A stretch of 64,000 bases of DNA. Origin: an uncultured Bacteroidia bacterium. Its GTDB lineage: Bacteria > Bacteroidota > Bacteroidia > Bacteroidales > Prolixibacteraceae. Positions 3-12,606 of the stretch are shown piece by piece (position 1 is the stretch's first letter; each line of letters starts with the position of its first letter). The stretch spans positions 62,001 through 126,000 of the forward strand of contig CAIXZH010000024.1 of the NCBI GenBank assembly GCA_903923905.1, in the 5' to 3' direction. Under the pieces are notes generated by a model, which made no database searches, was not told where the DNA came from, and saw only the letters and a program-made list of their open reading frames with translations. The translations under genes and the position numbers were made by a program.

Positions 3-1049
3 GATCCACAAAACAAAAATCTGGCTGCTCACATTAAGCTTGTCCCTATTGATAAAAACGGAAATGGCCGGATTGATTATGCCGAAGCTATCTATTACAA
101 TCTCCAGGAGTTTTCACGCGGGGTATGGATCGGAAGATACCCCCAGCCATTATCCGGAAAAATTTACTCCGTTTCTTCAGTCAAGCCAAAAGGTGCAATC
201 CAACTCTCATTTTTAAATTGGGTACTGACTGATGGACAGCGATTTTTAAGCAGTAATGGTTATAATGATTTGGTTCTCAATGAAAGACAATCTCAGCTTG
301 ATAAAATTATTGAACCTCAGGTATATGCAAGTGCACCAACTGAAACCAATCCGTTTTTAATCATTAGGATTTTAATCATTCTGGCTATCGGAGTTATTGT
401 TGTAGCATTAGAATTCGTATTTCGTCGTGTCAGGACGCAGGAAAAAGTCGGAGCCAGGTTTACTTCGACTCTGTTAGAAGTGGTTAATGAGGAAAATATT
501 GCAATTCCACGGGGACTCTACTTTGATCAAACTCATACATGGGCATTTATGAAAAAAGATGGCCTTGTAAAAATCGGAATAGACGACTTTCTGCAACATG
601 TTACAGGTCCGCTTACCCGGGTTGTGATGAAAAATACGGGTGATAAAATTAAAAAAGGAGATCATCTGCTCACAATCATTCAAAATGGGAAACATTTGAG
701 AATCTATTCCCCGGTTACCGGAACAATAACCGCTCAAAACAAGGAATTATTCGATAATTCAAGTTTGCTTAATTCCGCTCCTTTTACAGATGGATGGATC
801 TATACGGTTGAGCCTACAAACTGGTTACTCGAAATCCAGTTCATGAATATGGCCGAAAAGTACTCAACCTGGTTAAAAGACGAATATTTAAGATTAAGGG
901 ATTTCTTTGAAGCGGCAGTCAGGTTTCATGTTCCTGCATTTATCATGGTTTTACAGGATGGGGGAGTGCTGAGAGATGGAATACTCGGAGAACTTGGCCC
1001 GGAAATCTGGGAAGATTTCCAGACAAAATTCATGGATGTCAAAAAATAG
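3..1049 (+). CDS. PstS-like / GcvH-like membrane fusion protein (5' end missing)
   Basis: The reading frame is open from base 3 of the window, so this is the C-terminal part of a larger protein; the TTG at 270 is internal. Three parts are visible. Up to about base 340 the sequence resembles the C-terminus of a PstS phosphate-binding protein (YPLSGKIY-like stretch, then LNWVLTDGQRFL and a GYNDL end). A hydrophobic segment follows at about 354-420, then basic RRVR. The rest resembles a glycine cleavage H protein: IPRGLYFDQTHTWAF, then IYSPVTGTI. The usual ESVKA lipoylation motif is replaced by QNGKHLR, with the lysine one residue out of register. Inferred topology is a periplasmic binding domain and a cytoplasmic lipoyl-like domain. 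A hairpin terminator follows, then the two-component genes. Function unknown. Confidence 0.75.
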   Translation, partial: DPQNKNLAAHIKLVPIDKNGNGRIDYAEAIYYNLQEFSRGVWIGRYPQPLSGKIYSVSSVKPKGAIQLSFLNWVLTDGQRFLSSNGYNDLVLNERQSQLDKIIEPQVYASAPTETNPFLIIRILIILAIGVIVVALEFVFRRVRTQEKVGARFTSTLLEVVNEENIAIPRGLYFDQTHTWAFMKKDGLVKIGIDDFLQHVTGPLTRVVMKNTGDKIKKGDHLLTIIQNGKHLRIYSPVTGTITAQNKELFDNSSLLNSAPFTDGWIYTVEPTNWLLEIQFMNMAEKYSTWLKDEYLRLRDFFEAAVRFHVPAFIMVLQDGGVLRDGILGELGPEIWEDFQTKFMDVKK

Positions 1050-1139
1050 TTGAAGACAATCCGTATAATCTGTAAAAGTGGGAATTACTCCTTTTTACAA
1101 TCAGATAAATGGACTTTTCTTTGGAATTTGTTAATTTTA

Positions 1140-1170
1140 AAAACTGTTGTCAAGGCAACAGTTTTTTTTT
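1140..1170 (+). terminator. Rho-independent terminator
   Basis: A perfect 10-bp stem (AAAACTGTTG at 1140-1149, CAACAGTTTT at 1156-1165) with a 6-base loop is followed by a run of T up to 1170. It lies between the PstS/GcvH-like gene and the kinase gene, so the two are probably separate transcripts, or only partly coupled. Confidence 0.8.
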
Positions 1171-1214
1171 GTAATTTGCAGGTGAATGGAAACACTTGCT
1201 AACAAGCTGAACAG

Positions 1215-2888
1215 ATGTTCTTCAGAAAAAAAAACACCACCAAAACAGGAAACGTAATACTTAATAATTACGTTAAATTCAGGTCTTCCATTTACGGCAG
1301 AGTCGTATTGATAATCACCTACCTGTCTGTATTTCTCTTCGTCTCATTCAGCCTTATTTTTAAGTCGGTGAATGAGCATTACCTGAATACCCTCATCCGC
1401 CAGAATGGCAACAATATCGGTTCAATCGTTGAGGGGGCATTATATCATTCGATGCTCGAGAATGATAAAAGTTCATTGCGAAACACACTCGACATTATCA
1501 ATACCTTGCCCGGAATAGATGAGGTGAACATGTATGACAGCGACGAAGACCTCGTCTATTCATCATTTGGATCAGATACGGATACGAGCAGCAAACACAG
1601 CGATCCGAATTGCAAAAGTTGCCATCCCAATATCAAATCGATGTTCTCCCAAAAAGAGAAAACATATAAAATAATCAATGTCAACAGCGATTGCGAGATG
1701 AATGTCAATGATAACGGAAGCAGGCATTTACTGATAAAATCGCCGATTTTAAATGAAAAATCCTGTTCTGTGAGTTCCTGTCACGCTCATAAGGAATCGG
1801 AGGAATTACTGGGATCATTAGTGATTAAAATCCCACTGGAGGCTCAGGATGCAGCTATTCAGAAATCCTCCATCGAGTTCTTCCTTCTGGCCATCTTTGC
1901 AACTGGAGTTTTCGTGCTGGTATTGCTGTTTTTTACCAGGAGAAAGATAAAAGATCCACTCAATGCATTAATAGAAGTGAGTATAGCTGTCGCCAACGGG
2001 GATAAAAGTACCCGTGTCGAAATCAAACCGAATCAGCTGGATGATATGAGAATGGTATCCCAGGCGTTTAATGATATGTTGGACAACCTCCATACCGCTT
2101 CAATTGAATTGGAAAACTGGTCACAACAGCTTGAATATAAGGTTCAGAAAAAATCAGAGGAACTTGGGGCTGCGCAACATGAATTGATGCATGTTGAAAG
2201 GCTCGCCTCACTGGGAAAATTATCCTCTTCAGTGGCTCATGAAATAAATAACCCGCTGTCCGGAATCCTGATTTATGCCAAGCTATTGCAAAAACAGGTC
2301 AGCAATCCTGAATTATATGCCTCCAAGCGGGAATCGATGCTCAAACACCTGAAACTAATTGAAAATGAAACGAAACGTTGCGGCGATATCGTCAAGGGTC
2401 TGCTGGATTTTTCAAGAAAGGACCAGAATGATTTTGAGCCAAAGCATTTGCATGAAATTCTGGAGGATACCTATGAACTGATGTCGCATCCAATCAAAAT
2501 TGCCAATATCAAGTTTTTAACTGAACTTACTGCCGCATCCGATTTAATTTATTGCAGTCCCAACCAGATCAAACAGGCTTGCATAGCCATGCTTGTGAAT
2601 GCTTCTGAGGCTGTGACCGAAAATGGTGAGATCACGATCAAAACTAAAAATCAGGATGAAGAAAACGTTACTTTTGAAATCATTGATAACGGGCAGGGAA
2701 TCGATCCAAGCGATATTGAGCATATTTTTGAACCTTTCTTTTCCACCAAGACAAATGTTAGTGGCATAGGGCTGGGACTCGCTATTGTTCATGGAATAAT
2801 TCAAAACCACAAAGGGAAGATTCAGGTGAAATCAGAACCCGGACATGGTACTACCTTTTCTGTAACTTTACCCTTGATTAAAACTTAA
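1215..2888 (+). CDS. Membrane histidine kinase with heme-motif periplasmic sensor
   Basis: Sensor kinase of 557 residues with membrane segments at about 29-49 and 220-240 and a periplasmic loop of about 170 residues between them. The loop contains CKSCH at 133-137, a classical c-type heme attachment motif, and CSVSSCH at 184-190, a CX4CH variant. Then come HAMP, a HisKA box (VAHEINNP, phosphoacceptor His) and a HATPase_c domain (NASEAV N box, DNGQGI, GIGLGLAIV). The heme reading is inference; heme-bearing sensor kinases are known in Geobacter and related bacteria. The response regulator gene starts 14 bases downstream, so the pair is an operon. Probable role is sensing periplasmic redox state or a gaseous ligand. 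The kinase call is secure and the ligand unknown. Confidence 0.92.
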   Translation: MFFRKKNTTKTGNVILNNYVKFRSSIYGRVVLIITYLSVFLFVSFSLIFKSVNEHYLNTLIRQNGNNIGSIVEGALYHSMLENDKSSLRNTLDIINTLPGIDEVNMYDSDEDLVYSSFGSDTDTSSKHSDPNCKSCHPNIKSMFSQKEKTYKIINVNSDCEMNVNDNGSRHLLIKSPILNEKSCSVSSCHAHKESEELLGSLVIKIPLEAQDAAIQKSSIEFFLLAIFATGVFVLVLLFFTRRKIKDPLNALIEVSIAVANGDKSTRVEIKPNQLDDMRMVSQAFNDMLDNLHTASIELENWSQQLEYKVQKKSEELGAAQHELMHVERLASLGKLSSSVAHEINNPLSGILIYAKLLQKQVSNPELYASKRESMLKHLKLIENETKRCGDIVKGLLDFSRKDQNDFEPKHLHEILEDTYELMSHPIKIANIKFLTELTAASDLIYCSPNQIKQACIAMLVNASEAVTENGEITIKTKNQDEENVTFEIIDNGQGIDPSDIEHIFEPFFSTKTNVSGIGLGLAIVHGIIQNHKGKIQVKSEPGHGTTFSVTLPLIKT

Positions 2889-2902
2889 TGAGAAAATAGT
2901 TC

Positions 2903-4246
2903 ATGGCGAAAAAAATTTCCATCTTAATCGTCGACGACGAAGAATCTGTTCGTGACTCGCTCTATAACTGGTTTATTGAAGACGGATACCGGGTTGAAAC
3001 GGCAGAAAATGCCCGAAAAGCGCTCACCCTTCTCGAATCTGACCAGTTTGACATTATCCTGGCAGATATTAAAATGCCCGGTATGGACGGGCTTGAGATG
3101 CTCCGAAGGATAAAATCGATTAAACCCGTATCCATCATCATCATAATGACCGCTTTTGCTACAGTCGACACTGCAGTTAAGGCCCTTAAAGACGGTGCCT
3201 ATGATTATGTGACCAAACCCTTTGATCCGGATGACCTCACACATCTGATCCGAAATGCCACCAAACAAATATCACTCGAAGACGAAAATGAAACCCTGAA
3301 GAAAAAAGTAATCACCCTTGAGAATGTTGAAGATCTGATTGGTGAGAGTGATGCCATGAAAAACCTGCTCAGGGAGGTTGAAAGTGTCGCTCAAACCAAT
3401 TCTTCGGTGATCATCAGTGGGGAAAGCGGAACAGGAAAAGAGTTGGTGGCTAGGGCAATTCATACTAATTCGCCGCGAAAATTTTTCCCCTTTGTCAGTG
3501 TTCATTGCGGCGCACTGACCGAGAGTCTGCTGGAAAGCGAATTATTTGGTCACGAAAAGGGGGCTTTTACCGGGGCCATGTACAATCGCAAGGGGCGGTT
3601 TGAGATGGCAGACAGCGGATCTATTTTCCTTGATGAAATTGCCACTATCTCAACTAAAATGCAGGTGGAGTTGTTACGCGTTTTGGAATCAAAAACCTTT
3701 ATGCGTGTCGGTGGGAACAAGGAGATCTATTCCGATTTCAGGGTGATTTGCGCAACCAACAAAGACCTTAAAAGTATGGTTGAACAAGGGACTTTCAGGG
3801 AAGATCTCTTCTATAGGCTGAACGTAGTAAATATTCACATCCCGCCATTGCGTGATCGTATTGCAGATATTCCTCTCCTGGTCGACTATTTCATCAAAAA
3901 ATATTGCCTGTCAATGAACAAACCACCTGCAGCTATTGATCCAACAGCATTGAAAAGGCTACAAGAGTTTAACTATCCCGGAAATATCCGTGAGCTTGAA
4001 AATATGATTGAACGAGCCATTGTTGTTGGCGACGGAAAACGGATCTCACTAAAAGATCTCCCGCTGGAAAAATCTATCGTAAATAGTTCAACTGAAAGTC
4101 TCGATGATTTTGAACGGGCCTTTATTCTGCAGATTCTTCATAAATACAGCTGGAATATTTCACGTACTGCAAAAGCGTTGAAGGTTGACAGGGTGACGTT
4201 GTACAATAAAATTAAGAAATACGATTTAAAACCCACAGATCAGTAA
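2903..4246 (+). CDS. Sigma-54-dependent response regulator (NtrC family)
   Basis: A 447-residue regulator with the three canonical domains. The receiver domain (about 5-120) has the DD pair near the N-terminus and phosphoacceptor Asp55 in ADIKMPG. The AAA+ domain has Walker A GESGTGKE, the sigma-54 contact loop GAFTGA and FLDEI. A Fis-type helix-turn-helix (ISRTAKALKVDRVTLYNKI) lies at the C-terminus. It should activate RpoN promoters when phosphorylated by the adjacent kinase. Its targets are not obvious; I did not identify a convincing GG-N10-GC -24/-12 promoter in the surrounding spacers by eye. Confidence 0.95.
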   Translation: MAKKISILIVDDEESVRDSLYNWFIEDGYRVETAENARKALTLLESDQFDIILADIKMPGMDGLEMLRRIKSIKPVSIIIIMTAFATVDTAVKALKDGAYDYVTKPFDPDDLTHLIRNATKQISLEDENETLKKKVITLENVEDLIGESDAMKNLLREVESVAQTNSSVIISGESGTGKELVARAIHTNSPRKFFPFVSVHCGALTESLLESELFGHEKGAFTGAMYNRKGRFEMADSGSIFLDEIATISTKMQVELLRVLESKTFMRVGGNKEIYSDFRVICATNKDLKSMVEQGTFREDLFYRLNVVNIHIPPLRDRIADIPLLVDYFIKKYCLSMNKPPAAIDPTALKRLQEFNYPGNIRELENMIERAIVVGDGKRISLKDLPLEKSIVNSSTESLDDFERAFILQILHKYSWNISRTAKALKVDRVTLYNKIKKYDLKPTDQ

Positions 4247-4335
4247 GATTTCAGTATAATACCACATTTGAGTGGTCCGGGTATAGATCAACTTGATTGT
4301 TTTTTTCCGTCTCCTTAAAAACAAACTATTCACCA

Positions 4336-4866
4336 ATGAGTCTGCCAACCATTACGTTACTCTCTTTTGGTTTTCCCCAGCAGGATTTTCTGGACCAAAT
4401 CGCCAGGGCAGTTCAATTGGAATTTGGTTATGCGGTGAATCTCAGAGAAGGACGGATTGATCTGGGCGAGTATTATGATCCGGCAAGAAACCAGTACAAT
4501 GGTAATAATCTTCTAAATCTTGTTGATTCACTACATGTTACAGATTCATTTAAAACTCTTGGAATATTTAATGTAGACCTTTTTATTCCTATCCTTACCT
4601 TCATTTTTGGCCAGGCATTCCTAAACGGGAACAGCGGAATTGCATCTTTTTACCGTCTGAATAATGAACGGTATGGCATGCCGGAAAACGATCTGTTATT
4701 CATTGAACGTGCAAAAAAAGAGGTCATCCATGAAATAGGTCACACTTTTGGCTTAATTCATTGCCAAAACCCCGTTTGTGTCATGAGATCAAGCACCTAT
4801 CTGGAAGATGTGGACCAAAAAAAACTGCACCTCTGCCACAATTGCAGGGAAAAGCTTGTTGGATAA
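4336..4866 (+). CDS. amzA: Archaemetzincin-type zinc metalloprotease
   Basis: Carries the family signature HEIGHTFGLIHC: zinc ligands at about His132, His136 and His142 with catalytic Glu133, followed by VMRSS (metzincin Met-turn) and a C-terminal LCHNC cysteine motif that binds a second zinc. The length of 176 residues is typical of M54 peptidases. I chose the ATG at 4336 rather than the TTG at 4297 because MSLPTITLLSFG matches the usual start of the family core. No signal peptide, so cytosolic. Physiological substrates of this family are poorly known. Confidence 0.88.
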   Translation: MSLPTITLLSFGFPQQDFLDQIARAVQLEFGYAVNLREGRIDLGEYYDPARNQYNGNNLLNLVDSLHVTDSFKTLGIFNVDLFIPILTFIFGQAFLNGNSGIASFYRLNNERYGMPENDLLFIERAKKEVIHEIGHTFGLIHCQNPVCVMRSSTYLEDVDQKKLHLCHNCREKLVG

Positions 4867-4938: not shown

Positions 4939-5967
4939 ATGAAGCCGGGACGGATTAAATACAATATATTAAACATCCTGTTTCCCGTTTGTGCTTTCAT
5001 GCTAACCTGCTCATTTGTCCATCCGGATCAGGTACCATTCATTTACCGTCCCGTTTATTTCCCAATTTACCCGTATTCTACCTATCAGTCGACTAACTAT
5101 TCGCCAGATTTCAGTTTAAGTTCAGATTCGGTGGTCATACCACTTAAAAGGGCCGGCCGATTGTTCCTGATTGAAGCAAAAGTAGATGATCAGATTGGAA
5201 ATCTGGTCTTTGACACCGGTGCCAACGGACTGGTTCTCAATAGCACCTATTTCAGGAATTATCTTAAATCCGGCGAAGCTGTTTCTAACGGAATCACTGG
5301 TTCGGTTGGGGTTGTCGGGCAAATTTCAATCGGGAAGCTGGAATTTTCGGAGATAGCCTATAAAAACATCAAGGCAGATGTCACAGATCTGGGGCATATC
5401 GAAAACCGGCGGGGTTTTAAAATATTGGGATTGCTTGGATTTAGTATGATGAGAAACCTTGAAATTGTAATTGATGCAAGGAATAATGAGCTGGTTCTTA
5501 TACGAATAGATAAGGATGGCAAAAGGAAGAATAAAGCAAACTCTGAATTTAAGGCCAGCTATTTCCAGAAGTTCGAAACAAACAGCAATATTCTTTTTTT
5601 AAAAGGGAAAATAGCTGGTAAAAATCTTAATTTCTGCTTCGATACCGGTGCCGAAACAAATGCAATCAGCAGTGATTCAAATAAAAACATTCTGAATACA
5701 CTAACAATCACACGCCGCTCCACCCTCAAAGGAGCCGGATCAGCACGATCTGAGGTTTTGTTTGGACACATGAACGATTTTTCGATCGGCGAAAGACACA
5801 TCAGCGAAATGGAGACGATCGTTTCTAACCTTGATGCCTTAAGTGAGGCCTACAACACAAAGATTAACGGAATCCTGGGCTACAATTTTCTCGTACAGGG
5901 TACTATTTGTATTAATTTTGTAAAGAAACAGTTTGGTATTCGTTTTACTAAAAAAGAAGAAAAATGA
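4939..5967 (+). CDS. Secreted retropepsin-like aspartyl protease
   Basis: A 342-residue protein with an N-terminal hydrophobic export signal and two aspartyl protease active-site motifs, FDTGANG (Asp92) and FDTGAET (Asp235). The two halves therefore form a pepsin-like pseudo-dimer in one chain, as in bacterial retropepsin-like and PDZ-associated periplasmic proteases. No PDZ domain is visible. The stop codon overlaps the start of the next gene (ATGA at 5964-5967), which indicates translational coupling to the four-module glycogen-binding protein. A joint extracytoplasmic role is inferred; substrate unknown. Confidence 0.8.
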   Translation: MKPGRIKYNILNILFPVCAFMLTCSFVHPDQVPFIYRPVYFPIYPYSTYQSTNYSPDFSLSSDSVVIPLKRAGRLFLIEAKVDDQIGNLVFDTGANGLVLNSTYFRNYLKSGEAVSNGITGSVGVVGQISIGKLEFSEIAYKNIKADVTDLGHIENRRGFKILGLLGFSMMRNLEIVIDARNNELVLIRIDKDGKRKNKANSEFKASYFQKFETNSNILFLKGKIAGKNLNFCFDTGAETNAISSDSNKNILNTLTITRRSTLKGAGSARSEVLFGHMNDFSIGERHISEMETIVSNLDALSEAYNTKINGILGYNFLVQGTICINFVKKQFGIRFTKKEEK

Positions 5968-7409
5968 AGACAATCGTACGTTTTACCCTGCTGTTTATTG
6001 GACTTTTTTATATTACTTCCACACAGGCTCAATTCAGTCCGGATAAAATTTGCCGGATCGAAAACGGTCATCTTGTCTTTGCAATCAATTTGAAATGGAG
6101 TTTAAGGGATCAAAAGGAGCTTATGCAACTTTTTGATCTTGACAGTACCCTTATTGCTCAGGTTTTCAGCGGCAAATCCATTATTACAGGGGAATATGGA
6201 GGATGGAAAGTTAAAAAGGTAAAACCAAATATCGTTGAATTATCCAAGCCGGTTGATTCAAAGAATGATAAAAACATTAAAATCAATGATCTCTTTCTGG
6301 AAATTGATGAATGGAGGAATTTTGGAGGTAATACTGAGGACGTTTCAGTCGTTTACGGAGTGAATGATTTTAAACTTTCCTACGTTTTCACTTACAACAA
6401 AATCAAGGCACAATTTTATCTGCCCGCATTTAAAACGGCAGGTAAAATCTTTCTTTCAGGCAGTTTCAATGGTTGGAGCACTGCCTTGAATCCAATGAAA
6501 AGAGTAAAAGACAGCTGGATAACAGATATCAATCTTAAACCCGGGAAATACACCTACAAGTTCATTATTGACGGTAAATGGACTGAAGATCCCAACAACA
6601 ATCTCAGGGAAGACGATGGCGCAGACGGACATAATTCAGTCGTTTATTGTTGCAATCATCTGTTTAAACTCAATGGCTACAAGGGCGCCCGAAATGTGGT
6701 TGTAACCGGCAATTTCTGCAACTGGAATCCGGATGGAATAAGCATGCATAAAACCGACGATGGGTGGTCTGTGCCAGTTTATTTGCGCAACGGAACCTAT
6801 GCCTATAAATTTATCACAGATGAGCAATGGATAACTGACCCGGGTAATCCGATCGTACGAAAAGATGGAGACGGGAATCTCAATTCTCTAATTGGAATCG
6901 GAGAACCCTATTTGTTTAAACTTGACGGGTATTCCAAAGCCAGGGAAGTTGTTCTGACGGGAAGTTTTAACGGATGGAATCATGCAGAACTGGTAATGGA
7001 CAAAACTGAAAAGGGCTGGCAGCTACCCTACGTGATCGCACCGGGAAATTACGAATACAAATTCATTGTCGACGGAGATTGGATTACCGACCCGGCGAAT
7101 CCAATTACTACTCAATCAGGTGATCAAATAAATTCATTCATAGCCTTGAAAGCCAACCATCTTTTCGAGCTCAACAAATTTCAGAAAGCAAAGTCAGTAA
7201 TCGTATCCGGAAGCTTCAACGGCTGGAATACTCAAGGTTATAAAATGACCAGACAAGGAGAGAAATGGATTCTGCCTCTCTTCCTTGCTCCGGGGAAATA
7301 CACCTATAAATTCATCGTTGACGGAACATGGATTCTTGACCCGGACAATTCGCTTTATGAGCAAAACGAATACAACACCAACAATTCAGTACTTTGGATT
7401 GAACCCTGA
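5964..7409 (+). CDS. Secreted protein with four AMPK/CBM48-like glycogen-binding modules
   Basis: Signal peptide (about 1-22, ending TQAQ), then a region of about 120 residues that I do not recognise, then four tandem modules. Each has the pattern GSFNGW, a hydrophobic strand, YxYKFIxDGxW and a DP motif. The GSFNGW-type motifs begin at residues 166, 249, 333 and 416, a regular period of 83-84 residues; the second copy is altered to GNFCNW. This is the fold of AMPK beta-subunit glycogen-binding domains and CBM48. No catalytic domain is present, so the protein probably binds alpha-glucan or acts as a multivalent scaffold. It is translationally coupled to the upstream aspartyl protease. Confidence 0.85.
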   Translation: MKTIVRFTLLFIGLFYITSTQAQFSPDKICRIENGHLVFAINLKWSLRDQKELMQLFDLDSTLIAQVFSGKSIITGEYGGWKVKKVKPNIVELSKPVDSKNDKNIKINDLFLEIDEWRNFGGNTEDVSVVYGVNDFKLSYVFTYNKIKAQFYLPAFKTAGKIFLSGSFNGWSTALNPMKRVKDSWITDINLKPGKYTYKFIIDGKWTEDPNNNLREDDGADGHNSVVYCCNHLFKLNGYKGARNVVVTGNFCNWNPDGISMHKTDDGWSVPVYLRNGTYAYKFITDEQWITDPGNPIVRKDGDGNLNSLIGIGEPYLFKLDGYSKAREVVLTGSFNGWNHAELVMDKTEKGWQLPYVIAPGNYEYKFIVDGDWITDPANPITTQSGDQINSFIALKANHLFELNKFQKAKSVIVSGSFNGWNTQGYKMTRQGEKWILPLFLAPGKYTYKFIVDGTWILDPDNSLYEQNEYNTNNSVLWIEP

Positions 7410-7599: not shown

Positions 7600-10485
7600 A
7601 TGAAGAAAGTTCTCTTTCTCTGTTTTGCCCTGTTTGTTGGAAGTTATCTTAAAGCCGATGATCATACTCCAATAAATCCTGAAATAGGCAGAAAATATAC
7701 GGTAGAGACCATCTATCATCAGGATACCTCAAAAACCAACCCGCGCAGGGAATACGACAAAAGAACCTATGAATGGACCGCAACAAATTATGACCCTAAA
7801 GAAAACCGCTATACGGTAAGATTAAATGTCAGTTATTTAATGCATGTAGTTCAGGAAATTAACCAAAACGGAGAATGGCAGGAAAAGGAGGTCTTTGAGA
7901 CCGGCTATTTGACCTCTTACCGAAATCCCCTCGTTTTTATAAACCGATACTATATTCCGGTAACCTTTAAGCTATCAAAAGAGGGCAAAGCTTCCGAATT
8001 TGACTTTAGCGAATATGGGAAAACCAAAAATTCAGGAAGTCTCGATCCAGATCTGGGCGAATTGGACCAGAAGGATATCGAGTCTGAAATTGGCATTTTA
8101 TTTGAAGATACTAATTCAACATTGGACACCAAACAGACCATTAGCACCCGTTTTCATAACTTCTTCTCACCACTTCCTTACCGGGTGATCTGGCAAAATA
8201 TGTCCGGGGATTCCCATTTAACTGAAAGTGACAATAAGGAACACACTTACCGCAAATTAGTAGTTGATAAATCGTCTGGACTGATCCTTGAAAAGGTATT
8301 AAGCAATCTTCGGGATAGATCGGGGCAAAGAAATCTAACCTATTACCAGAAAATGATTCCCGAATTTTCGAAAAAAGGTGAAGTGAAGGAAAGAACTGAA
8401 AAGGGGACTTATGAGAAAAGCGAAGTACAAAATTCAAATACTGCACTCAGGATTACCAATCACGATCCGGTTAACAATCAAAAGTTTATCTATCTGACCT
8501 GGTTTGATCGGTTTTCCGGTGATTTTAAATCCGTTCAACTGGAAAGAGATGAGCACGGCATTTTCAATTTTCAGTCACATTTGGACCAATCCCAGGGGTG
8601 CTATATCAGTTTTAGTGCTGAATTGCCGAATTTTACCAACCCATTTAATCTGAATTTAAATCCCGGGGATGACCTGGAAGTTGAAATCAACAATTCATCC
8701 GACTCAGGCAAGACCACTTTCCGTGGAGTTGGGGCTGATGAAAACCGGGTATCCCGGCAGATTGGAAAATTAATAATGTCTGAAACAAAGGGAATGAAAG
8801 CCCGCCCCTTTCAACCTCTAAAAGCCAGTTTTGACAGTGCATGCAGGATACTGAATGAGTCTAAATTGACGATTTGTCCTGAAACCTATCTTGACCTATC
8901 CAACACCCTTTTATACCTAAGCGAAATCCTGAAAACACATAATGATACCACTTATACCGATAAGCTGAAAATCCCGGTTTGTAATACAATTGCCAAAAAT
9001 AATGCATATTATCAGCTGTTTCTGAAAAGTTATGTCGCTTCGTTTATGGAAAAGATAAGCCACTCCTCCACGAATCTGATTTCATCAGCAGATCTTTACG
9101 AGCGGGAATACAGTTTCGGGCAGGTGCTCTTCCCTGAACCCATTCTTTCCGAATATCTGTCCATGGTGGTTGAGAATGCGATCGAAAGGGGAAGATGGGA
9201 AAATGCCAAAATCCTCTATGAGCGTCATAAACTAGCTTATTCAAACAATCCCAGGTTTTTAAAAACCTCACGTATTTTTCAGCTTCAGACTCAGCTTTCT
9301 CCCGGATCTATATTCCCCCTGGATGTATTGACCGATAATCAAGGGAAAACCATTAAATTCAGGAATATTACAGATAAATTGGTAATTATCAGGATGCATC
9401 AGATTCTGACTGCCGGGAATCTGGCAAAAGAAATTGCCGATTTAAAGAATGCTTCTACTCATCAAAAGGAGATTAGCGAGGTTTGGTTTTTCACCGGCAA
9501 AAACAACCAAAATACAGATTTAAAAGCAGTAGCGGATTCATTACCCGATATTCACATTGTCTTTGACAGCATGGACACTCTTTTTAAGAACCATAATAGG
9601 CTGCGGACTATGTCTAACAGGACAGAATACGTATTGGGGAGAAAGGGGGTCATCCTTTTTAACCGGATTCCAGGTTCTGCTGAATTGCAAAATGCAGTTG
9701 CAGATCTTAGTAGGCCTCATTTCATAGGGACTCCTTCGGACCTTATCCTGAAAATAATTGCAATCGTTCTTCTGGTGATCCTAATCCTGACTGGGATCGG
9801 GTTTATGGTATACCGCCGCATTTCGGGACGAAAGCTTAAACTGGCAGAGATAAATCGCCGGATGCGGGAGCTTGAACTCACAGTGATCAGGACCCAGATG
9901 AATCCCCATTTTATGTACAACTGCCTGAATTCCATTCAAAACCTGGTGCTAAAAAACCGGAATGATGAGGCTCACCTTTATCTTTCCAGGTTTGCTTCAC
10001 TTGTAAGACAGGTATTGAATAACAGCAAAAAGGAGGAAATTGCATTGAGTAAAGAGCTTGATTCGGTGAAGGATTACATTGAATTGGAGCAACTAAGGTT
10101 CGGTTTTGAATATACTATTGAGCTTCAGAATGGAATCGATCCTAACGATATTTTTATCCCTCCGATGTTGCTTCAGCCTTTTGTCGAGAATGCTATCCTG
10201 CACGGACTTCTCCTTAAAAAGGACAACCGGATATTGAAAATCTTTGTTCAGACAGAGCAGGATAAAATTATACTGGTGATCGAAGACAACGGTGTGGGCC
10301 GCGAAGCTGCCGGTAAAATGGAACTCAAAGGTAACGGCCAAGGAATCCGGCTGTGCCAGGACCGTCTCCTGCTCCTTTCCGTGAAGACAGGAATTCAATA
10401 CGAATTAAAGATTGAGGATTTAACAGATGGAAATAATCAACCATCCGGCACCCGTGTTTCTATCGGATTTATTGAGGAAGAATAA
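7600..10485 (+). CDS. LytS/YehU-type histidine kinase with large exported sensor region
   Basis: A 961-residue kinase. After the signal peptide (1-19) come about 690 exported residues. The part at about 566-705 (SIFPLDVLTDNQGKTIKF onward) reads like a thioredoxin/TlpA fold but has no CXXC and no recognisable cis-proline loop. One membrane helix follows at about 711-741. The cytoplasmic part is a His_kinase (PF06580-type) domain with phosphoacceptor His770 in MNPHFMYN and an N box near 861 (ENAILHG), then DNGVGR. The LytTR regulator starts 33 bases downstream. The sensor shares its overall plan with the TlpA-like gene after the regulator, suggesting cell-envelope or thiol stress sensing (inference). 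Confidence 0.9.
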   Translation: MKKVLFLCFALFVGSYLKADDHTPINPEIGRKYTVETIYHQDTSKTNPRREYDKRTYEWTATNYDPKENRYTVRLNVSYLMHVVQEINQNGEWQEKEVFETGYLTSYRNPLVFINRYYIPVTFKLSKEGKASEFDFSEYGKTKNSGSLDPDLGELDQKDIESEIGILFEDTNSTLDTKQTISTRFHNFFSPLPYRVIWQNMSGDSHLTESDNKEHTYRKLVVDKSSGLILEKVLSNLRDRSGQRNLTYYQKMIPEFSKKGEVKERTEKGTYEKSEVQNSNTALRITNHDPVNNQKFIYLTWFDRFSGDFKSVQLERDEHGIFNFQSHLDQSQGCYISFSAELPNFTNPFNLNLNPGDDLEVEINNSSDSGKTTFRGVGADENRVSRQIGKLIMSETKGMKARPFQPLKASFDSACRILNESKLTICPETYLDLSNTLLYLSEILKTHNDTTYTDKLKIPVCNTIAKNNAYYQLFLKSYVASFMEKISHSSTNLISSADLYEREYSFGQVLFPEPILSEYLSMVVENAIERGRWENAKILYERHKLAYSNNPRFLKTSRIFQLQTQLSPGSIFPLDVLTDNQGKTIKFRNITDKLVIIRMHQILTAGNLAKEIADLKNASTHQKEISEVWFFTGKNNQNTDLKAVADSLPDIHIVFDSMDTLFKNHNRLRTMSNRTEYVLGRKGVILFNRIPGSAELQNAVADLSRPHFIGTPSDLILKIIAIVLLVILILTGIGFMVYRRISGRKLKLAEINRRMRELELTVIRTQMNPHFMYNCLNSIQNLVLKNRNDEAHLYLSRFASLVRQVLNNSKKEEIALSKELDSVKDYIELEQLRFGFEYTIELQNGIDPNDIFIPPMLLQPFVENAILHGLLLKKDNRILKIFVQTEQDKIILVIEDNGVGREAAGKMELKGNGQGIRLCQDRLLLLSVKTGIQYELKIEDLTDGNNQPSGTRVSIGFIEEE

Positions 10486-10518
10486 CATTTGTGAACAATA
10501 TGTTTAGAGCAAAAAAGA

Positions 10519-11262
10519 ATGGGACCAATCAAAGCAATCGTAATTGATGACGAACAAAACGGGCGAGAGAACCTATGCAGTACCTTGGAAAAATACTTTC
10601 CCGGGATTGTGTTGGTTGCCGAAGCCGATTCGGTGCTCTCGGGCATTGAGGCCATCCAGAAATATTCTCCCGATCTCCTCTTTCTCGATATTGAAATGCC
10701 TGGCGGGAACGGATTTAAAGTACTTGAATTCTTCACCGATCAACCATTTAATGTTATTTTCGTGACCGCTTACGACCATTATGCAATCCAGGCAATCCGG
10801 TTCTCTGCGCTCGATTATATCCTTAAACCCATAAATCTCCTTGATTTGCGCTCAGCAGTAAACAGGTACATGCAGCGGAAAGACAGGGATCAACGCGTAC
10901 TGGACCAATTTTTAAAAAATGCCGGGTCGGCCCTGCCAGAAAAAAAGATTGCCCTGGCAACAGGCGACAAAATTGAGTTTTGCAAAATCGGACAAATCAT
11001 TCGTTGCCAGAGCGACGGGAATTATACAAATTTTCATTTTGCAAATCGCACCACCCTCCTGGTTTCGAAAACGCTCAATGATTTCGAGGAGATCCTCGAC
11101 GGTTATGGCTTTATCAGAACTCATAAGGCCCACCTTGTCAACCTAATGTTTGTTCGTTCGTTTCATAAAAACGATGGCGGATACCTGAAAATGACCGATG
11201 ACACTTCCGTACCTGTTTCACGCCGTAAAAAGGAGGAGATCCTGAACCGGTTAAAATTCTGA
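10519..11262 (+). CDS. LytTR-family response regulator
   Basis: A 247-residue cognate of the preceding LytS-type kinase. The receiver domain has the acidic pair IDDEQ near the N-terminus, phosphoacceptor Asp in FLDIEMPGG and a conserved lysine in YILKPI. The C-terminal LytTR DNA-binding domain includes IIRCQSDGNYTNFHF and RTHKAHLVNL. Kinase and regulator are 33 bases apart on the same strand, so they are co-transcribed. LytTR proteins normally bind pairs of direct repeats of about 9 bp. Confidence 0.94.
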   Translation: MGPIKAIVIDDEQNGRENLCSTLEKYFPGIVLVAEADSVLSGIEAIQKYSPDLLFLDIEMPGGNGFKVLEFFTDQPFNVIFVTAYDHYAIQAIRFSALDYILKPINLLDLRSAVNRYMQRKDRDQRVLDQFLKNAGSALPEKKIALATGDKIEFCKIGQIIRCQSDGNYTNFHFANRTTLLVSKTLNDFEEILDGYGFIRTHKAHLVNLMFVRSFHKNDGGYLKMTDDTSVPVSRRKKEEILNRLKF

Positions 11263-11337
11263 TCCCTTTATTCTAACTGAACCTATTGGACTAAGAAAAG
11301 CTATAACTTATTGAAGAAGAGTATTTTTTTAATGCAA

Positions 11338-11367
11338 TTTGGAATTTCAAAATCCTTAGTACATTGA
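11338..11367 (+). promoter_or_regulatory. Possible Bacteroidota-type promoter for the TlpA-like gene
   Basis: TTTG at 11338-11341 is followed after 18 bases by TACATTGA, an imperfect match to the TAnnTTTG -7 box known in Bacteroidetes. The start codon is about 40 bases further on. Weak evidence based on two short motifs. Confidence 0.3.
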
Positions 11368-11403
11368 ATTTCGAAGATAATCACATCAATAAATTAACTC
11401 AAA

Positions 11404-12606
11404 ATGAAAAAATCAATCCTTCTTATCGTGTGCTTGATGATTATGACCAACGCCTTTTCTGCGCCGGGTCAATTTGTTTTAAACGGAAAAATCCAGGGTA
11501 TTGCCTCTGGAATGGCGATTTTATCCTATTCAGTTTTTAAGGTCGATCGATGGCATCAAGTAAAAGATTCTGCCCAAATTATTCAGGGAAATTTTCTGAT
11601 TAAGGGGATGATTGACGAACCTTTGAAAGCAGATATAAAAATTGGTGACCATGTAACCTCCTTTTATATCGAACCTGCTACAATGAATTTGTATTTTCCG
11701 ACTAAAGACCTAAGTGAATTTACCTTAAATGGATCCAAAACTCAGGACGAATCCGAATTGTATGTCCATAACACTATGGAATTAGACAAACTGGATAACC
11801 AACTCTGGAAACAGTACCCCAAAGTTAACTTGGATACTATCCCTGAAGACAATCCACTTCGTAAAAAATTCTTGGATAAAATAGAATCAATTGATAATCA
11901 AAGGGATTCTCTATGTGAACTTATAAATAATGCAAAGATTGATTTTATCAGGACAAATCAGAATTCCTTTCTTCCGGTTATTGGTGATGAAATAACTCGG
12001 TTATTATATCAAAGGGTGGATCCGATATCAGTTGGGCAAGCACGAAAACTCTTCAATAACTTGTCAGAAAAAGTCAGACATAGCACCTATGGTATTCGGA
12101 CCAATAATAGAATCAAAGTAAAAGAAAATGTAGTTGTTGGAAGGCTTGCACCTGAATTCAGTACACCTGACAAAAATGGCAAAACAGTGAAATTGTCCGG
12201 ATTTCGGGGAAGAAGTTATGTAATGCTGGACTTTTGGGCAAGTTGGTGCTCCCCATGCTTGAAAGGCGTTCCCCATTTAAAGCAACTATTTGCCAGGTAT
12301 CATGATAAAGGGTTAGAGGTCATATGTGTTTCAGTGGACTACAAAAAAGACAAATGGCTGTCTGCGATTGATAAATACGATCTCTCCTCATGGCATCATG
12401 TTTTGAGTGTACAGGATCTGGACAAATCATTTCAATACATTGAAAATAAGGATGATATCAGAGAAAAATATCCTTTAGGCAATGGAGTTCCACAATATAT
12501 TTTAATTGACAAAACCGGGAAAATAATCGGGAAATGGGATTCCTATTCAGAACAAAATGAACAAGAACAGGATAAAATGCTGGCAGAAATTTTCGGCGAA
12601 AAATAA
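11404..12606 (+). CDS. TlpA-family thiol-disulfide oxidoreductase with DUF4369-like N-terminus
   Basis: A 400-residue exported protein with a signal peptide (about 1-19). The N-terminal beta-rich part (FVLNGKIQGIASGMAILSY) matches the DUF4369-type domain common in Bacteroidetes. After a helical linker, the C-terminal thioredoxin domain (about 245-400) has the active-site motif WCSPC with Cys282 and Cys285 and a VPQYILID cis-proline loop. Expected role is reduction of periplasmic disulfides or cytochrome c maturation. It lies 141 bases after the LytTR regulator and may be under its control. The GH42 gene ends convergently 8 bases beyond. Confidence 0.9.
   Translation: MKKSILLIVCLMIMTNAFSAPGQFVLNGKIQGIASGMAILSYSVFKVDRWHQVKDSAQIIQGNFLIKGMIDEPLKADIKIGDHVTSFYIEPATMNLYFPTKDLSEFTLNGSKTQDESELYVHNTMELDKLDNQLWKQYPKVNLDTIPEDNPLRKKFLDKIESIDNQRDSLCELINNAKIDFIRTNQNSFLPVIGDEITRLLYQRVDPISVGQARKLFNNLSEKVRHSTYGIRTNNRIKVKENVVVGRLAPEFSTPDKNGKTVKLSGFRGRSYVMLDFWASWCSPCLKGVPHLKQLFARYHDKGLEVICVSVDYKKDKWLSAIDKYDLSSWHHVLSVQDLDKSFQYIENKDDIREKYPLGNGVPQYILIDKTGKIIGKWDSYSEQNEQEQDKMLAEIFGEK

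Follow-up and report, generated by a model that had tools for sequence, protein, structure and literature searches.

The DNA analysed here, a 64,000-nucleotide window of contig CAIXZH010000024.1 from an uncultured Prolixibacteraceae bacterium, begins inside a gene for a membrane protein that joins a PstS-like domain to a GcvH-like (H-protein-like) domain, followed by genes for a sensor histidine kinase with two heme motifs and an NtrC-type sigma-54 response regulator. These three genes adjoin one another in the window, confirming the predicted trio as real. Our leading, though still tentative, reading is that they belong to a two-component system for redox sensing that has a dedicated accessory protein spanning the membrane, and that the unit seen here is the remnant of a seven-gene operon. 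On the best reading of the sequences, the fusion would be that accessory protein, neither lipoylated nor phosphate-binding and originally tied to a quinone-linked electron-transfer unit, a biochemical role that we infer. The disarmed fusion, the heme sensor and the electron-transfer genes found in relatives together suggest a redox-sensing system that has not been studied so far.

The two domains of the fusion protein

The fusion gene is whole in the genome and encodes 565 residues. It starts 649 bases to the left of the window, at G000:C24:61352, with two dyads and a promoter-like element further upstream, in keeping with the expectation of the original prediction, made from the window alone, that the module continues beyond the left edge. 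The parts inside the window are as follows.

3..1049, + strand: 3' portion of the gene for the PstS-GcvH fusion, from codon 218 to codon 565 with the stop codon; PF01597 at residues 389-510, folds of a 90%-identical homologue
51..86, + strand: EF-hand-like loop, residues 234-245, in the PstS-like domain, also present in the cell's own PstS; from sequence comparison
351..437, + strand: predicted transmembrane helix, residues 334-362, linking the PstS-like and GcvH-like domains; from the secondary structure of the homologue's model and the hydrophobic sequence
501..884, + strand: GcvH-like domain, residues 384-511; PF01597 match and the homologue's fold
687..692, + strand: G446-K447, where the lipoyl-lysine column is Gly and the next position is Lys; from alignment
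885..1046, + strand: conserved C-terminal extension, residues 512-565, also on the second GcvH-like protein of relatives; from alignment

Both the PstS fold and the H-protein (GcvH) fold are kept in the structure model of the 90%-identical homologue, the PstS fold lying outside and the GcvH fold inside the membrane. In the alignment, the column of the lipoyl lysine is Gly in 64 of 64 fusions, with one further row gapped, and the position after it (+1) is Lys in all 64. In the true GcvH of this genome, the lipoyl lysine is still in place. A scan of 120 domains gave no match to the canonical lipoyl-site pattern, and the window's fusion scores below both NCBIfam cut-offs for GcvH. The second GcvH-like protein of relatives (n = 55) has Gly in 43 cases, Asp in 8, Asn in 3 and Lys in 1 at the lipoyl column, and lacks the +1 lysine in 8. 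The original prediction had suggested a carrier role, and the invariant +1 lysine and the retained fold leave some room for a domain that is lipoylated or otherwise modified on the shifted lysine. We consider this highly improbable in view of the uniform Gly, the absence of the canonical pattern from the scanned domains and the loss of the +1 lysine in part of the second proteins; lipoyl domains are also not known to tolerate a shift of their lysine.

For the outer half, we aligned 50 fusions with three standalone PstS proteins, setting aside fusions of 540 residues or fewer and the standalone PstS of L169, whose motif is divergent. The cell's PstS carries the motifs TRSDxCG and GGAGKG, which we take, as for the family in general, to be the phosphate site. 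The Arg of the former and the first Gly of the latter are each kept in 0 of 50 fusions. No pstC, pstA or pstB transporter gene lies beside the fusion gene, and an ordinary pstSCAB operon, named from gene order and sequences, is located on contig C36 of the same genome. The possibility that the fusion is an ordinary phosphate-binding receptor subunit beside unrelated signalling genes, which the original prediction had named as a way in which it could fail, is thus extremely improbable, and the ordinary phosphate transporter was rejected on the lost site motifs and the separate operon. An EF-hand-like loop has been kept in the fusions (first Asp in 49 of 50, final Glu in 50 of 50); the strict EF-hand pattern matches 35 of 53, most of the remaining ones deviating at one position. 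The ordinary PstS of the pstSCAB operon, at L165 (G000:C36):5228-6175, has the same loop, a shared feature that hints at where the fusion's outer domain came from. Judged by its residues, neither domain of the fusion is canonical, both being without the usual ligand or cofactor residues, which makes a protein-protein coupler its most likely function.

A conserved operon in relatives

In relatives, the genes form a conserved operon in the order fusion, iron-sulfur (Fe-S) protein with a twin-arginine translocation (TAT) signal (HmcB/HybA-like), NrfD protein (HmcC/HybB-like), second membrane-anchored GcvH-like protein (GcvH2), kinase, regulator and archaemetzincin. A search of other genomes, as advised by the original prediction, gave fusion matches at E 1e-80 in 49 of 393 genomes of the order, ten of them covering the GcvH half only, and in just the window's own genome among 395 drawn from the phylum. 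Three candidates per genome were scored in these samples, and the homologue lists comprise the best 120 of 1471, 2010 and 306 (the 1471 coming from 8000 scored candidates); the spread may be wider on both counts.

Our census took the fusion or its GcvH half as anchor and covered 65 regions, 58 of which are not cut by a contig end (the cut ones being L057, L063, L074, L122, L128, L136 and L137; L075, L076 and L164 contain no whole anchor). Because regions were picked by their fusion match, the counts tell how often the kinase accompanies the fusion and not the reverse. The kinase is present in 56 of the 58 uncut regions, so the rare co-occurrence that was named as grounds for refutation is not what we found. 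The two exceptions are L066, in a genome that carries the kinase at a second copy of the short form, and L153, where the Fe-S frame runs into what remains of a kinase. Among the 56 kinase-bearing regions, the regulator is absent from L058 only, and the archaemetzincin, which the original prediction had not listed and which is the conserved last gene of the unit with an intact motif, is found in 54 (absent from L058 and L148). All three genes of the electron-transfer block were called in 45 of the 58; in L134, L135 and L145, the simple gene caller reports one of them as absent, and these regions were tallied as long forms. The proposed unit and its link to electron transfer were therefore borne out, in distinction from the lipoyl-carrier and phosphate-receptor roles discussed above.

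The Fe-S and NrfD proteins of L005 have HmcB and HmcC as their best NCBIfam matches, with scores below the equivalog cut-offs (339.8 vs 420 and 401.4 vs 550, respectively). In G637, the second GcvH-like domain is fused to a cytochrome b561 domain, at L132 (G637):8955-10187, beside a protein with seven CXXCH motifs; proteins with 19 and 4 CXXCH motifs are encoded upstream of the fusion gene, and together these take the place of the Fe-S/NrfD pair. Close to the unit, no more than two genes away, multiheme cytochromes were seen in just three genomes, G637, G585 and G703, the latter two contributing PstS-less loci (L161 and L162, respectively) whose multiheme cytochrome genes adjoin the unit.

Some regions deviate individually. 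The set of kinase genes is found upstream of the fusion in L125 and in the contig-cut L137. G026 holds two fusion loci, L066 with electron-transfer genes and no kinase, and L067 with kinase, regulator and protease only. At L153 (G552):7404-8546, one frame consists of the N-terminal part of the Fe-S protein and the C-terminal half of the kinase, and NrfD, the second GcvH and the kinase sensor are missing, by deletion or an assembly join. The GcvH2 gene at L057 (G001):217-913 and the fusion gene at L074 (G053):3546-5149 are each split over two frames, through a frameshift or an assembly error.

Kinase, regulator and archaemetzincin

The signalling genes and the protease gene of the window are listed below.

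1215..2888, + strand: sensor histidine kinase, with transmembrane segment, periplasmic domain with two heme motifs, transmembrane segment, HAMP, HisKA and HATPase_c
1611..1625, + strand: kinase heme motif 1 (CXXCH)
1764..1784, + strand: kinase heme motif 2 (CX4CH)
2903..4246, + strand: NtrC-type response regulator, with receiver, sigma-54 AAA+ domain with GAFTGA, and Fis helix-turn-helix (HTH)
4297..4866, + strand: archaemetzincin (peptidase M54), open reading frame from TTG 4297, likely start ATG 4336; NF033823, PF07998 and synteny

With a HisKA/HATPase kinase, a receiver-sigma54-HTH regulator carrying GAFTGA, and rpoN in the genome, the pair is an NtrC-type two-component system. The sole Pfam model passed by the window's sensor is CusS, a metal sensor (25.2 bits vs 24.1), which 4 of 10 sensor members match; DUF3365/PF11845 is absent from the Pfam matches of the ten at E up to 1. 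A search of PDB sequences with the sensor profile gave no match, and the heme segments of the sensor's structure model fall below 50 in pLDDT (predicted local distance difference test). Two tandem diheme kinases stand ahead of one regulator in L070 (G058) and L127 (G658). The archaemetzincin matches PF07998 and NF033823 (156.8 bits against a cut-off of 145), and its HExxHxxGxxHC motif is intact in 54 of 59 copies, the window's included.

The short form of the unit

The window's genome is without the three middle genes (Fe-S, NrfD and GcvH2). No NrfD match was obtained anywhere in this genome, no Fe-S gene lies at the window locus, and the only two GcvH matches are the fusion and the true GcvH. 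The NrfD search recovered the protein in all four genomes known to hold it. Three features mark the site.

1050..1131, no strand: deletion junction, where the Fe-S/NrfD/GcvH2 block of relatives is absent; from comparison with relatives
1132..1231, + strand: segment 80-81% identical to L005 and L015, covering the end of their GcvH2-kinase gap and the kinase start; from alignment
1140..1171, + strand: terminator-like hairpin and T run, the same one as 3' of GcvH2 in two relatives; from sequence comparison

This short form occurs in 8 of the 58 regions. Six of these have a full fusion and the other two its GcvH half alone, and none lacks the kinase, the regulator or the archaemetzincin. NrfD is absent genome-wide in seven of the eight genomes; the eighth, G026, has one at another locus. 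On a 57-row tree of kinase plus regulator, built by a quick method with support from the Shimodaira-Hasegawa-like approximate likelihood ratio test (SH-aLRT) only, the short form requires seven changes, each of them forced by starred branches; the window itself falls in a starred clade with four long forms. Since shuffled labels need 7.6 changes on average, the short form is scattered rather than clustered. Loss of the block is favoured over its gain by the constant position of the block and by a matching scar in the window, namely the segment at 1132-1231, which resembles the end of the gap between GcvH2 and kinase in two relatives, terminator hairpin included. An assembly artefact is disfavoured, as the junction lies inside a 206-kb contig, no NrfD is found elsewhere in the 97.8%-complete bin, and other genomes have the same form.

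We examined whether the fusions keep the columns conserved among long forms, omitting L074, L143 and L153, which are broken or partial. The window's fusion retains 26 of 28 columns in the PstS part, 38 of 38 in the GcvH part and 13 of 13 in the C-terminal part, and by this measure is not decayed; the other short forms keep 0.86-1.0 of the conserved columns over the three parts. These values bear on the idea that the window's unit is a decaying remnant of the deletion without a function of its own. Three of seven genes are indeed gone, G001 of the same genus has its GcvH2 gene split, and several other short forms show some relaxation at the conserved GcvH columns. The four remaining genes are nevertheless all open, both dyads and the promoter-like element are kept, and the same four-gene form recurs at five other full-fusion loci and two GcvH-half loci, and we regard decay as rather improbable.

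The separate absence of the block also speaks to a different view, in which the fusion and GcvH2 are chiefly structural subunits docking at the inner face of an HmcBC/HybAB-type complex, the kinase and regulator just switch that complex on, and the short-form fusion serves another redox complex. The frequency of the three electron-transfer genes in the uncut regions, the HmcB-like and HmcC-like partners, the GcvH2-cytochrome b561 fusion of G637 and the slightly relaxed GcvH domain of some short forms all fit this view. Against it, the block is separately absent on the tree (seven changes) in loci where kinase, regulator and protease remain beside the fusion or its GcvH half, and seven of the eight short-form genomes offer no NrfD elsewhere. 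We judge it unlikely, though a serious contender.

Upstream dyads and promoter-like element

Two dyads (GTGTTGA-N3-A-N-TCAACA), 88 bp apart, precede the fusion gene to the left of the window, and a -24/-12-like element, TGGCAT-N5-TTGAG, lies 93 bp after the start of the nearer dyad, also left of the window. Of 62 upstream regions, 44, with the window's among them, carry the proximal dyad together with the element, compared with 9 of 12,400 shuffles, and 37 carry the pair plus the second dyad, compared with 0 of 12,400; L143, with too short an upstream sequence, was left out of this set. Five of the eight short forms have the pair. The original prediction had pointed to GG-N10-GC promoters of the -24/-12 type; dyads and a -24/-12-like element do stand before the fusion gene, but the -12 part is rarely TTGC. 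We apply the sigma-54 label because the sites are arranged in this way, the regulator carries GAFTGA and the genome has rpoN.

A scan of the window's genome that allowed up to one mismatch returned just the two dyads before the fusion gene. Across nine genomes, including this one, the fusion promoter always has a dyad at this stringency and is the sole such place in six; the reversed pattern gave none. At two mismatches, the scan of the window's genome returned 18 rows against 10 in the reversed control, so weak sites cannot be judged, and the genome scan for the -24/-12-like element (62 sites against 29 in the reversed control) is too noisy to define a regulon. Autoregulation of the kinase and regulator received little support, with a dyad in 5 of 58 kinase upstream regions and the -24/-12-like element in 0 of 58. 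A terminator-like hairpin is present in 11 of these 58.

Proposed mechanism and its standing

Computed gene content, synteny, the recurrent separate presence or absence of the electron-transfer block, the promoter architecture and the lost residues underlie the following scheme, in which we infer the signal, the docking partners, feedback and any role of the protease. The periplasmic diheme domain of the kinase would report the redox state or a heme ligand such as nitric oxide (NO), and the kinase would phosphorylate the NtrC-type regulator, which would bind the two dyads 5' of the fusion gene and bring about its sigma-54 transcription. In relatives, the regulator would also switch on the periplasmic Fe-S protein, the NrfD-type membrane quinone protein and the second GcvH-like protein. 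The fusion would span the membrane with its PstS-derived domain outside and its H-protein-fold domain inside. In the long form, it may couple the electron-transfer unit to the signalling proteins through the inner H-fold, the NrfD unit being its probable partner, as G637 has the GcvH2 domain in one protein with cytochrome b561, beside multiheme cytochromes. With the short form, only the kinase, regulator and archaemetzincin would be left for it to work with, perhaps by feedback on the kinase.

Several observations weigh against this scheme. The PstS half is absent in 10 of the 65 regions, which have the GcvH half only, and the long copy of G026 has no adjacent kinase. The kinase and regulator tree cannot tell loss of the block from gain. 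The other short forms keep 0.87-0.97 of the GcvH columns, with three of eight rows below 0.92 compared with at most two of 54 long rows, which may reflect mild relaxation or a bias from choosing the columns on long rows. At the thresholds used, 18 of the 62 upstream regions are without the dyad-promoter pair, including three of the eight short forms (L141, L158 and L163). The element alone is found in 62 of 62 upstream regions and also in 965 of 6,200 shuffles, and its -12 part (TTGA in 38, TTGG in 14 and TTGC in 3 of the 62) is unlike the classical sigma-54 GC. As CusS is the only Pfam model that the window's sensor passes, a metal is a possible signal.

A stronger version makes the fusion a third signalling component, a receptor built of two disarmed domains that would carry a periplasmic or membrane redox signal inward, control the diheme kinase via the H-fold and be turned over by the archaemetzincin. 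We consider this version improbable; if true, it would give the archaemetzincin family a native pathway.

Neighbouring genes

Beyond the archaemetzincin gene, a double-domain aspartic-protease-like protein is encoded at window positions 4939-5967, adjoining the gene for a protein with four AMPK1_CBM (CBM48-like) glycogen-binding repeats (5964-7409). At 7600-12606, a histidine kinase of the LytS type, whose N-terminal part is large, is encoded with a LytTR regulator; a thioredoxin-like AhpC-TSA/DUF4369 protein comes next.

Known systems and significance

In the ZraP-ZraSR system, a sigma-54 regulator has as its close target the gene for an accessory protein outside the cytoplasm, the small periplasmic zinc protein ZraP. 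The accessory protein here is instead a membrane-spanning PstS-GcvH fusion, and the sensor is diheme. With Hmc (HmcB/HmcC) of Desulfovibrio and HybA/HybB of E. coli hydrogenase 2, the relatives share the TAT-type Fe-S and NrfD-like pair, which the window has lost; the relatives' unit differs in having two GcvH-fold proteins in place of the Hmc partners and, in L005, scores below the equivalog cut-offs. LbpA, another relative of GcvH, is soluble.

In PMC6067878, LbpA proteins are described as GcvH-like proteins that bind lipoate and belong to the Hdr-like sulfur oxidation pathway. They resemble the present case as GcvH relatives recruited outside glycine cleavage and beside redox genes; LbpA binds lipoate, whereas the fusion has Gly for the lipoyl lysine and a membrane anchor. 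Fe-S/NrfD modules (a tail-anchored ferredoxin with HybB/NrfD) outside hydrogenase operons, with one or two c-type cytochromes, are reported in PMC10924467; the gene pair is the same, and here it accompanies GcvH-fold proteins, a diheme kinase, a sigma-54 regulator and an archaemetzincin. The sCache_heme sensor domains (DUF3365/Tll0287, GSU0935) have one heme motif according to a preprint (PMC12889525), whereas the kinase here has two (CXXCH and CX4CH) and no DUF3365 match at E 1. In the open-licence literature, we found no paper joining archaemetzincin with a histidine kinase, and at most a few candidate papers on GcvH-like proteins or archaemetzincin with such a unit; papers on archaemetzincin and operons concern other subjects, judged by their titles. 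The parts are each of a known kind, and their assembly and the disarmed fusion appear to be new.

Two textbook domains have thus been fused and disarmed to become the apparent dedicated partner of a heme-carrying two-component system. Since the regulator seems to have one strong target in the window's genome, the circuit should be easy to test. The repeated separate absence of the electron-transfer genes provides natural experiments that part a subunit of a redox complex from a signalling partner, and the presence of archaemetzincin in nearly all kinase-bearing regions gives a handle on the role of this protease.

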